Assembly (NCBI GenBank): GCA_903873775.1
Contig: CAIQPR010000008.1
Location: 1-38,822, forward strand
Origin: an uncultured Actinomycetes bacterium
GTDB taxonomy: Bacteria > Actinomycetota > Acidimicrobiia > Acidimicrobiales > RAAP-2
Length of the DNA: 38,822 bases
Direction of reading: 5' to 3'
Shown here: positions 131 through 5,409 of the stretch, in pieces
How the letters are laid out: each line of letters starts with the position of its first letter
Position numbering within the stretch: position 1 is the first letter of the stretch
Made by a program: the position numbers and the translations under genes
Notes under the pieces: model-generated
The model's input: only the letters and a program-made list of their open reading frames with translations
Database searches by the model: none
Told to the model about the DNA's origin: nothing

Positions 131-140
131 TTCGCACTCG

Positions 141-213
141 TAGGGCCGGTGGGGATCGAACCCACGACCGAGGGATTATGAGTCCCCTGCTCTAACCACT
201 GAGCTACGGCCCC
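141..213 (-). tRNA. tRNA with CAU anticodon (Met elongator or Ile2)
   Basis: The minus strand folds into a full cloverleaf of 73 nt: acceptor GGGGCCG paired with CGGCCCT, a D-arm with the usual AGCTCAGTGG, an anticodon loop CTCATAA giving CAU, a GGTTCGATC T-arm and discriminator A. The acceptor starts with a G-T wobble. CCA is not encoded. A CAU anticodon can be elongator Met or the Ile2 species whose C34 is changed to lysidine by TilS; the short D-loop resembles Ile2 of E. coli, but sequence alone does not settle it. It is not initiator tRNA, because the three G-C pairs of the anticodon stem base are missing. Confidence 0.9.
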
Positions 214-2487: not shown

Positions 2488-2593
2488 CTCCTCGCACGAG
2501 AGGACGAGGGGAATACTCGGTGACGGCGACCGAACAATTTGAGTCGTGACTTGATTGTCCGCGTGTCCCAGAAAATCTGAGACATCAAGAAAG

Positions 2594-2666
2594 CTCCCAG
2601 AGCAGGACTCGAACCTGCAACCTAGCGGTTAACAGCCGCTTGCTCTGCCAATTGAGCTATCTGGGA
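2594..2666 (-). tRNA. tRNA-Asn (GUU anticodon)
   Basis: The minus strand gives a 73-nt cloverleaf: acceptor TCCCAGA paired with TCTGGGA, D-arm AGCTCAATTGG, anticodon loop CTGTTAA (GUU), T-loop TTCGAGT and discriminator G. The sequence closely matches bacterial tRNA-Asn. CCA is not encoded. Confidence 0.95.
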
Positions 2667-2708: not shown

Positions 2709-3566
2709 CTACTGCGCGCGGAGCCACGCCAGCATCTGGTCGGCGTGCTCGCTCGTTTCGACCGCCCGCCGCCACTTCGCCACGCGCTTGGCCATGGCTT
2801 GTTTGGAAATACCGTGGCGACGCCCCAGCTCCTCCAGAGACATCACGCGACCCGTCCACATCCAAAAATCGGTGAAGTCCTTCCCGAGGATGTCCTTGAG
2901 GCCGTCGATCACCCACTCCGCTTCGGGCCACGGTTGCGTGTCGTCCGGCACGCGCGCCATGTCGGAGTCGTGATCAAGAGTGCCGAGGCCCGCTGCGATG
3001 TCGGACGAGAGGCGCATGATTCTCGCCGCCTCCGTGCGCGACACACCGAGCACCTTGGCCGCCTCGGTCGGACTGAGAGATCGCTGGGGATGCTGATGCT
3101 CGTGTCGTCGCAATTTGATGACCAGTCGAATGTCAGCTTCGGGATAGGTCACCCGGTGCGAAATAGCCGTGAAGACCATTTTGGAGATCCAGTAGTTCGC
3201 GTACGTGGCGAATCTCGTGCCCTGATGGGGATCAAATCGTCGCAGAGCTGTGACCAGTCCCTCGAGTCCGGCCGATTCAAGTTCGTCTTGATCAAAGGGG
3301 AAGCCCAGGTCGTTCACCCGTTTCTTCACCAAGGCGCACGTGCCGGCGAGAAGCTCCTCTTCGGCCGCGCGCCCGTCGTTCACTTCCCGACGAAGGCGTG
3401 TGCGCTCGGCGGCGGGTATGTCCACTCCGGCACTGAGCGTCGCCGCGGCGTCACGACCTCGCGCCATGCGCGCGTGAACAATGTCTTCTTCGTCCTTGTC
3501 GAGCGGCGTGCGGATCGTGATCATGCCGACGGCACCGTGCCGCGCACTCCCCCGCCTAGTCGACAT
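2709..3566 (-). CDS. Compact sigma-70 family factor downstream of dnaG
   Basis: The 285-residue protein directs RNA polymerase to promoters. Region 2 is at about 70-136, with LEGLVTALRRFDP and an aromatic FATYANYWISK in the 2.3/2.4 part. Region 3 is at about 160-190 with a helix-turn-helix-like SPTEAAKVLGVSRTEAARI. Region 4 is at about 240-270 with LEELGRRHGISKQAMAKRVA. Region 1.1 is absent. It is much shorter than a primary sigma factor and its region 2 is divergent, so it looks like a group 3 type factor. The ATG overlaps the end of dnaG by 11 bases and has GAGAGGA at good spacing, so the two genes form one operon. That position is the one rpoD holds in macromolecular synthesis operons. Whether this factor is essential or conditional is not known. 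Confidence 0.85.
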   Translation of the reverse strand: MSTRRGSARHGAVGMITIRTPLDKDEEDIVHARMARGRDAAATLSAGVDIPAAERTRLRREVNDGRAAEEELLAGTCALVKKRVNDLGFPFDQDELESAGLEGLVTALRRFDPHQGTRFATYANYWISKMVFTAISHRVTYPEADIRLVIKLRRHEHQHPQRSLSPTEAAKVLGVSRTEAARIMRLSSDIAAGLGTLDHDSDMARVPDDTQPWPEAEWVIDGLKDILGKDFTDFWMWTGRVMSLEELGRRHGISKQAMAKRVAKWRRAVETSEHADQMLAWLRAQ

Positions 3567-5409
3567 GAACGTCCTCTCGACTCACGAGCCACGCGCGCAG
3601 TTCCGCTTCCGCCGCCAGCGTGTCAGGTCCCCCCAATTCGGCGAGACGCAACTTCACGTCGCGGATGACCGCCATCGCCGACGCGGGCGTGACGGCGCCG
3701 GCGCGCAGGTCCCGATCGATCTCCTTCAAGGCGTCGGTCGCCGATGCCCGCAGCAATTGCGCCACGATGTCGTTGATCTCCTTGTCGCCGAGAGGACCAT
3801 CACCGAAATCCTCCACCGACACCATCCGTATCAGTTGGGCGGCCGCCCCGTCATCTTGACGCTCTAGCGCGTCCACCGCGTCGGCGACGAGTTGACCTCC
3901 AGTGAGCGCTTCGAAGGCGCGTCGCTGGGTCTCATCGAGAAAATAGGCCGCTTCGAATCTCCCCTCGGCACTGTCGGGTTGATGAATAAGAACCGACAGT
4001 GCCGCCAACCCGGGTCTCGGCGAGTTGCGCAGATCAAAGGTGGGCTCGTGAGGCACGTCAGTTTCCACGACGCGTGCCGGTGGGCCATCCGGTCGAGGTC
4101 CTCGTCGGATGGCGGCGTCCACCATGGGGCGGAGACGTTCGACGTCCACACGGCAGCGGTCGGCGATTTGCTGCAGGTATTGATCGCGCACCAACTCGGT
4201 GGGGTGTTCCGCAACGACCTCGACCGCAGCCTCGGCGGCGCGAGCGCGACCCTCGGCCGACGTCAGGTTGGCCCCCGCGAGAACGCGGTCCAGGCGAAAT
4301 TGCAGGAAGGGAATAGCTGCGGCCACGGCGTCCCGCAGAGCCTGCGGGTCCTTTTGGGCGAGCTCCCCGGGGTCCATCCCGCTCGGCAGACGCACCACGG
4401 CGACGTCGACCTCGTGCTTGCGTTCCCATTGGTAGACCGACGCCGCCGCACTTTGACCGGCGGCGTCGGCGTCGTAGGCGAGAACAATGCGCCGCGCAAA
4501 ATTCCGCATGGTCTTGAAGTGTTCTTCGGACAGCGCGGTGCCGCAGGTCGCCACAGCACGCGGCACGCCGGCTTGAAAGAATCCAATGACGTCGGTGTAT
4601 CCCTCGCATACGAGGATCTCACCGCTCTTGATGATGTCGTCTTTCGCCACATTGAGCGCGTAGAGCGTGCGGCGCTTGGAGTAGATGGCGGTCTCGGGGG
4701 AATTCTTGTACTTCGGCTCCACGCGCCCGTCGGTGCGGGGAGGATCGTCGGGGTGGGGCGGCAAGATACGACCGCCCAAGGCGATGGGCTTGCCCGCCGT
4801 GTCAAAAATGGGAAACACCACGCGAGCGCGCAGCGCGTCTTGACGGCGACCACGGGAGTTCTCAAAGCCGAGACCCGTGCCGGTCAACACCTTGACCGGC
4901 AATTTGAGCGAGGTGGCGAGCGCGTCCCAAGCGTCGGGAGCCCACCCCAGCTTGAATTTCCGCACTGTCTCGCCATCGATGCCGCGCGCGCGAAGATACT
5001 GGCGAGCGCGCCCGGCGTCCGGTGACGTCAAGAGCCGCTCGTGGTACCACTCGACAGCCTGCGCCATCGCCTCCATGAGTTCCTTGCGTTCCTTGTTCTT
5101 GAGCCCCGACGATTCGTCTTCGTGGAGTTCGATGCCGGCCTTGTCCGCGAGAAATTGCATGGCATCGCGGAAATCGACATGCTGAATCTCCCGGACGAAT
5201 TTGATCGCGTCGCCCGAGGCCCGGCACCCGAAGCAGTAATACACACCCTGCTCGGCGTTGACGGAGAATGATGGCGTCTTTTCGCCGTGAAAGGGGCAGA
5301 GGCCCGTCCACCGACGGCCGGATCGCTTCAGTGCCACGTGCTCGGAGATGACCGCCACAATGTCGGTCGCCGCCCGCACTTGGGCAATTTCTCCGTCGGC
5401 GAATGCCAT
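3556..5409 (-). CDS. dnaG: DNA primase DnaG
   Basis: DnaG lays the RNA primers for DNA replication and works with the replicative helicase. The 617-residue length is typical. The N-terminal CHC2 zinc finger is complete (Cys38, His41, Cys59, Cys62). The core contains the TOPRIM motifs: EGYTDV with Glu269 and Asp273, and AYDADAAG with Asp313 and Asp315. The helicase-binding C-terminal part is poorly conserved, as usual. The ATG start has no Shine-Dalgarno sequence, but TACCCT ends 6 bases upstream. The gene is divergent from the ABC transporter genes across 67 bases and is followed by an overlapping sigma factor gene. Confidence 0.97.
   Translation of the reverse strand: MAFADGEIAQVRAATDIVAVISEHVALKRSGRRWTGLCPFHGEKTPSFSVNAEQGVYYCFGCRASGDAIKFVREIQHVDFRDAMQFLADKAGIELHEDESSGLKNKERKELMEAMAQAVEWYHERLLTSPDAGRARQYLRARGIDGETVRKFKLGWAPDAWDALATSLKLPVKVLTGTGLGFENSRGRRQDALRARVVFPIFDTAGKPIALGGRILPPHPDDPPRTDGRVEPKYKNSPETAIYSKRRTLYALNVAKDDIIKSGEILVCEGYTDVIGFFQAGVPRAVATCGTALSEEHFKTMRNFARRIVLAYDADAAGQSAAASVYQWERKHEVDVAVVRLPSGMDPGELAQKDPQALRDAVAAAIPFLQFRLDRVLAGANLTSAEGRARAAEAAVEVVAEHPTELVRDQYLQQIADRCRVDVERLRPMVDAAIRRGPRPDGPPARVVETDVPHEPTFDLRNSPRPGLAALSVLIHQPDSAEGRFEAAYFLDETQRRAFEALTGGQLVADAVDALERQDDGAAAQLIRMVSVEDFGDGPLGDKEINDIVAQLLRASATDALKEIDRDLRAGAVTPASAMAVIRDVKLRLAELGGPDTLAAEAELRAWLVSREDVHVD

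Follow-up and report, generated by a model that had tools for sequence, protein, structure and literature searches.

The gene that stands behind the primase gene dnaG in a genus of uncultured Acidimicrobiales, here called sigX, is best read as what the dnaG-linked rpoD (sigA/hrdB) became in this genus, with a SigB-type factor probably in charge of housekeeping and sigX most likely still a sigma factor (probability of this reading about 0.68). The primary sigma factor is commonly regarded as fixed, essential and tied to replication in the macromolecular synthesis operon. Descent of sigX from rpoD is suggested by its position and by trees that are partly supported, and sigX would most likely be active as a sigma factor today. 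The wider reading, that the order as a whole moved housekeeping from RpoD/SigA to the SigB type, that the dnaG-linked rpoD was repeatedly eroded or deleted and that this genus remade it as a new sigma factor, or a regulator of sigma origin, linked to the expression of primase, is held at even odds.

The window, the whole stretch of DNA analysed with a length of 38,822 nucleotides, is contig C8 of a genome of 1.97 Mb that is 91% complete. On its minus strand dnaG is followed by sigX, tRNA-Asn and, further on, tRNA-Met (Table 1). The initial annotation had described a compact sigma factor directly behind dnaG, overlapping the primase gene and provided with a GAGAGGA of its own, and all of this was recovered from the open reading frame coordinates and the sequence; sigX is probably translationally coupled to dnaG. 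Beyond tRNA-Asn, an open reading frame that looks acyltransferase-like by eye occupies positions 1267-2475 of the minus strand, and is equally seen in genome G015 (L125, 539-1726).

Table 1. Features of the sigX locus and further sigma factors of the same genome
Feature	Position	Strand	Basis and remarks
sigX, 285-aa divergent sigma-70-like protein	2709..3566	-	ORF with ATG start; putative positional descendant of rpoD/sigA
dnaG, DNA primase	3556..5409	-	TIGR01391, 396 bits; Pfam Zn ribbon, Toprim and DnaB_bind domains
Overlap of dnaG end and sigX start, 11 nt	3556..3566	-	ORF coordinates
GAGAGGA, Shine-Dalgarno-like, 5 nt ahead of the sigX ATG	3572..3578	-	Read from sequence
tRNA-Asn(GTT), conserved gene after sigX	2593..2666	-	ARAGORN
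tRNA-Met(CAT), next tRNA	140..213	-	ARAGORN; after tRNA-Asn in many relatives and outgroups
sigX region 2.3/2.4, residues 119-130, FATYANYWISKM	3177..3212	-	Canonical YATWWIRQ reads YANYWIxK
sigX region 4.2 recognition helix, residues 253-264, ISKQAMAKRVAK	2775..2810	-	Canonical TRERIRQIE replaced
SigB-type factor	contig C2, near NAD+ synthase gene		301 bits on the RpoD model
C10-type factor			215 bits on the RpoD model
Two small sigma-like proteins			ECF-like by eye

The gene is not a chance open reading frame, as a counterpart of 36-45% identity was found in 32 of the 36 other genomes of the genus searched, at the same place in those checked; in 24 genomes of other families the sigX search gave weak matches only, the best of 52.8 bits compared to at least 156 in the genus. 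In all 29 genus loci examined for both neighbours, sigX stands immediately between dnaG, on its upstream side, and tRNA-Asn, and so it does in G004, G010 and G035. A larger set of 80 named loci comes from MAG contigs, most of them filed under Acidimicrobiaceae, Acidimicrobiales, Actinomycetes or uncultured actinobacterium; bog, palsa and fen are among the isolate names on records with the sigX locus. Here, the distance from the dnaG match to the sigX match is -16 to 48 nt in 77 loci, the other three having no room for dnaG. In 75 loci tRNA-Asn comes 39-58 bp after the point where the sigX match stops, while two loci lack the room, L282 lies near a contig end and the tRNA is 730-865 bp off in L300 and L322. 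This gap between sigX and tRNA-Asn, positions 2667-2708 in the window, is nearly constant in those 75 loci, which may mean that both belong to one transcript.

The sigX protein begins inside region 1.2, as judged by alignment and by eye, so that the proposed lack of region 1.1 holds; equally, region 2.3/2.4 is divergent as described, with a motif that reads FATYANYWISKMVFTAISHR. Residues that touch the promoter or the core enzyme were assigned from work on Escherichia coli sigma-70. Column counts over 13 sigX rows, set against 24 SigA, SigB-type and same-family rows, did not show the canonical DLIQEG (region 2.2), YATWWIRQ (2.4), RTIRIPVH (3.0) or TRERIRQIE (4.2) in sigX. The altered parts comprise the core-binding motif of region 2.2, region 3.0 with its RTIRIPVH lost, the sigma finger with its motif D..L.D.IED lost, part of region 4.1 and the helix of region 4.2, whereas parts of region 1.2 and of the linker between regions 1.2 and 2.1, as found in SigA and SigB rows, remain. 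On curated models, sigX scores 31.9 bits with RpoD_Cterm (TIGR02393, cut-off 354) and 39.4 bits with FliA_WhiG (TIGR02479, cut-off 189.6), while Sigma70_r2 (PF04542, cut-off 24) gives 22.9 bits for the protein and 25.1 in the genome search and is matched by 60 of 60 members of the sigX family alignment with E values up to 0.001.

Whether a protein altered to this extent still programs RNA polymerase is the point at which the most serious alternative arises, namely that sigX is a sigma-derived DNA-binding regulator that no longer binds the RNA polymerase core as a sigma factor. DLIQEG has become ELEAAG or ELESAG, with its Q replaced by A (9 rows), S (2) or L (2) and its E by A in all 13, so that binding to the core may be weakened or lost, and the deleted sigma finger and shortened region 4.1 point the same way. 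On the other hand, region 2 is the best conserved part of the protein, with R-F-x-T-Y-A-N-Y-W-I unchanged across 60 sequences, and modelling predicts a sigma fold: for the AlphaFold2 model, although of modest confidence (pLDDT 76.7, pTM 0.58), the top-ranked Foldseek hits are the SigA and SigB chains in RNA polymerase complexes from mycobacteria and Streptomyces (E 4e-7). Its overall TM score reaches only some 0.4, because domain placement differs, and is 0.41-0.51 over 183 columns with 6eyd. A regulator without sigma function is considered unlikely, if worth keeping in mind, and sigX is taken forward as most likely a working sigma factor.

That rpoD is the usual gene after dnaG, as the initial annotation had stated, is borne out by genomes of other families. 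In 24 of 24 such genomes, one per family and with the placing next to dnaG resting on coordinates, the same-strand gene after dnaG encodes a SigA/HrdB-type RpoD and is the best RpoD_Cterm match of its genome (340-393 bits), above the cut-off in 20 and missing it at 340-353 bits in 4. L076, an RpoD of another family that scores 396 bits against SigA and 339 against SigB of Mycobacterium tuberculosis, served as reference SigA for BLAST identities along a ladder of rpoD genes within the family of the window. These are 58-62% identical to L076 in genera g156, g158, g162 and g163, 53% in g160, 51-53% in g27 and 44-45% in g26; sigX has a median identity to SigA of 23.5% in the core alignment. A dnaG match lies upstream in all same-family ladder loci read, and tRNA-Asn lies downstream in the one g26 and two g27 rpoD loci checked. 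The g27 rpoDs span 405 and 409 aa, and other same-family rpoDs are longer when measured from stop to stop. Motifs change along the same ladder: the first tryptophan of the W-dyad becomes F in g26 and Y in sigX, the residue before the dyad passes from T to S to N (with Y in one sigX row), and in region 4.2 TRERIRQIE turns into TKERxRQ(R/I)E and further into (S/T)(R/K)Q(A/G)(M/L)(A/S/T)KR, as RQIE gives way to RQRE in two of three g26 rows and to KR in sigX.

A phylogeny of sigma factors, suggested by the initial annotation, places sigX differently with and without the ladder. With the ladder included, sigX groups with the rpoDs of g26, g27 and g160 against the rest, at 98/96 in a tree of 45 rows from which four group 3 rows were left out and at 85/97, with the bootstrap not settled, in a tree of 49 rows with group 3 in. 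Without the ladder, sigX is unplaced in one tree and stands beside group 3 at 82/93, an unstarred value under a long-branch warning, in another. This is the single sighting of the group 3 affinity that had been named as the finding to speak against an origin from rpoD, and it is absent from the ladder tree that holds group 3. In all trees the sigX branch is very long, with 3.1-3.4 changes per site when the ladder is left out and 4.7 and more than 5 when it is included. In AU tests, sigX with the g27 rpoD is not rejected (p 0.35, 0.43), nor is sigX with all SigA (p 0.455, smaller set), and rival placements are equally not rejected, p being 0.24 and 0.19 for sigX with the SigB type and 0.17 for sigX with the C10/H types. 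A sigX HMM run on single sequences gives 63.9 and 79.7 bits for the g27 rpoDs, 72.2 for one g26 rpoD, a median of 64.0 for SigA, 58.4 and 57.8 for the SigB type and 27.8 for group 3, the lowest class tested; single SigB-type and group 2 rows, however, reach 70 bits, above the SigA median. Comparisons with hhalign favour SigA classes for sigX, and are used as supporting evidence only, because class diversity inflates such scores. As a candidate in its own right, assignment of sigX to group 3 is disfavoured by the low FliA/WhiG and group 3 profile scores and by the part of region 1.2 that is kept.

The initial annotation had left open whether a derived factor replaced rpoD at this locus or descended from it. 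For replacement, the original rpoD would have been deleted and a group 2 or group 3 relative inserted between dnaG and tRNA-Asn. Such a history might explain why sigX has a median identity of just 20-25% to each of the sigma classes, why the AU tests leave other affinities possible, and why region 2.2 resembles group 3 by eye (ELEAAGxEGL), the tree at 82/93 pointing in the same direction. Yet the swap would have had to leave the tight block of dnaG, sigma gene and tRNA-Asn undisturbed, and the partly retained region 1.2 and linker of SigA and SigB rows, the low group 3 scores and the ladder trees all argue against it. Replacement is thus distinctly unlikely, and descent is favoured because sister genera keep intermediate rpoDs behind dnaG that group with sigX in the ladder trees.

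A separate full-length RpoD, the presence of which the initial annotation had proposed to look for, was not found in the genome of the window at 91% completeness, where the best other sigma factor, of the SigB type, stays below the cut-off of 354 bits. Likewise, no RpoD over the curated cut-off was found among 61 genomes of the genus, many of which are incomplete. Of these 61, 45 hold a SigB-type factor of at least 248 bits, 8 only fragments that are assumed to be of SigB type and 3 an insert-bearing form, while no SigB-type match was obtained in 5 (G002, G021, G023, G064 and G077), a count to be read with the incompleteness of many assemblies. All 24 genomes of other families also hold a SigB-type factor elsewhere (294-308 bits), and its median identity between families is 90% compared to 66% for SigA (276 pairs each). 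Within the genus the median is 96% (435 pairs among 30 rows, namely that of the window and the best-scoring ones, which were thereby picked for intactness). The motifs of regions 2.2, 2.4 and 4.2 are kept in five of five SigB-type rows, with one conservative change, and region 3.0 reads RTIRLPVHAGD. From this relative constraint and from the genomes in which no canonical RpoD was found, the SigB-type factor probably carries housekeeping transcription.

A third sigma factor, the C10 type, was weighed for the same role and receives little credence. It is widespread in the genus, including G002, G064 and G077 where the SigB-type match is absent, but intact copies reach 204-219 bits on the RpoD model as compared to 295-301 for most SigB-type copies, and C10-grouped rows are just 32-85% identical, although they mix two types and several families. 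RbpA is an actinobacterial partner of sigma factors; its model (PF13397) was matched in 0 of 34 genomes of the order, that of the window included, with Corynebacterium glutamicum positive as control, and this lack of matches is uninformative on the sigma partner.

The SigB-type gene itself shows some variation. In G012, G015 and G075 (L228, L231 and L229) it measures 454-515 aa from stop to stop, the extra length coming from two inserts of, very roughly and by eye, 90 aa: one between regions 1.2 and 2.1, the other, which contains a cysteine-rich motif, in region 3.1. The dnaG-linked sigma gene is missing in both of these genomes that were read at dnaG, G012 and G015. About 1 kb from the enlarged gene, G012 and G075 encode a further divergent sigma factor (276 and 383 aa; L228, frame from 325, and L229), and a similar one of 355 aa lies on a separate contig in G015 (L230). 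In G007, G013 and G073 the coding sequence of the SigB type runs across two frames, by sequencing error or a real frameshift.

Erosion of rpoD might extend well beyond one genus. RpoD exceeds the cut-off in 134 of 248 genomes of the order, compared to 87 of 118 in a sample of the phylum; in 75 of the 248 the best match is weaker than 1e-95 and in 3 there is none at 1e-60. Most of the 75 sit at the level of the SigB type, and gaps in the assembly will account for some. Weak scores run through whole groups, namely f32 (8/8), f35 (8/8), f56 (7/7), f59 (7/7), f26/g28 (7/7) and f51 (3/3). A weak RpoD score does not equal loss, as became evident when 30 genomes of the order, chosen for weak or intermediate scores, were read at dnaG and 16 of them had a sigma match after it. 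These range from fairly canonical, with identities to L076 of 58% in G110 and G114, 50% in G244 and 47-50% in f61, down to 37-43% in f26, f32 and G116. In six genomes (G096, G280, G257, G217, G233 and G191) tRNA-Asn is near the end of dnaG with no sigma gene, the tRNAs being on the opposite strand in G191. Four more (G095, G234, G119 and G111) have no sigma gene in the stretch read after dnaG, and further stretches of G217, G234, G119 and G111 were likewise without one. The contig ends in the remaining four, G085, G115, G091 and G304, the locus of G085 being found on another contig.

Within the genus, sigX is under purifying selection in close pairs, dN/dS (Nei-Gojobori) being 0.148, 0.072, 0.056 and 0.108 in the four pairs with the lowest dS; values among the 25 pairs listed reach 0.615, though at higher dS, which is less reliable. 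Median pairwise identity is 60% (528 pairs, 33 rows), 41 columns are invariant in 60 sequences, and the 33 genus copies are free of internal stops, with the G035 copy matching only residues 10-244. The low dN/dS of the closest pairs makes it most likely that sigX is a live sigma factor, specific to the lineage and derived from rpoD. Against these values, a decaying remnant heading for loss without a selected role earns the slightest credence, even though the gene is gone in G012 and G015, where dnaG runs straight into tRNA-Asn, and several genomes of other families have no sigma gene between the two. In G002 and G031, which gave no strong sigX match, the contig stops within dnaG.

Taken together, the following course of events is proposed. 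A SigB-type factor with canonical -10 and -35 recognition motifs, far better conserved than SigA, would have taken over housekeeping in the order, and the rpoD behind dnaG may have been free to change because the SigB type did this work. Freed of housekeeping, the rpoD copy would have shed, one after another, its region 1.1, its sigma finger and the residues that canonically contact the promoter, while staying beside dnaG, probably translationally coupled to it, and under purifying selection. Its product, sigX, would most likely program RNA polymerase for a small and different set of promoters.

If the order has moved housekeeping to a paralogue while rpoD drifted, the definition of a primary sigma factor becomes directly testable, and the family offers a natural ladder of change in promoter recognition by one gene at one locus. 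Equally, in these uncultured bacteria caution is due with markers based on rpoD and with annotations that take SigB for a stress factor, as both can be misleading. Among the papers listed in searches of an open-licence library, none reports rpoD loss or decay in Acidimicrobiales, as judged by titles and the beginnings of abstracts.

Among known systems, sigX resembles RpoD/SigA/HrdB of the macromolecular synthesis operon in its place behind dnaG, a linkage on record as the dnaG-sigA operon (PMC2824700), in its colinearity from part of region 1.2 to region 4.2 and in having the same-family rpoDs as nearest relatives in the ladder trees; it differs by lacking region 1.1 and the sigma finger and by its altered motifs in regions 2.2, 2.4, 3.0 and 4.2. 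With the small group 3 factors FliA and WhiG it shares size, the absence of region 1.1 and, by eye, the look of region 2.2 (xxAGxEGL), but unlike these it keeps part of region 1.2 and the linker to region 2.1. The coexistence of two related factors recalls the group 2 or alternative primary sigma factors of actinobacteria and Burkholderia, where a paralogue exists beside the primary factor (PMC2194791). In Burkholderia, as portrayed in that work, rpoD remains the essential primary factor and the alternative primary factors are additional paralogues (PMC2194791), whereas in these Acidimicrobiales it is the putative rpoD orthologue that has diverged and the SigB type that is conserved.
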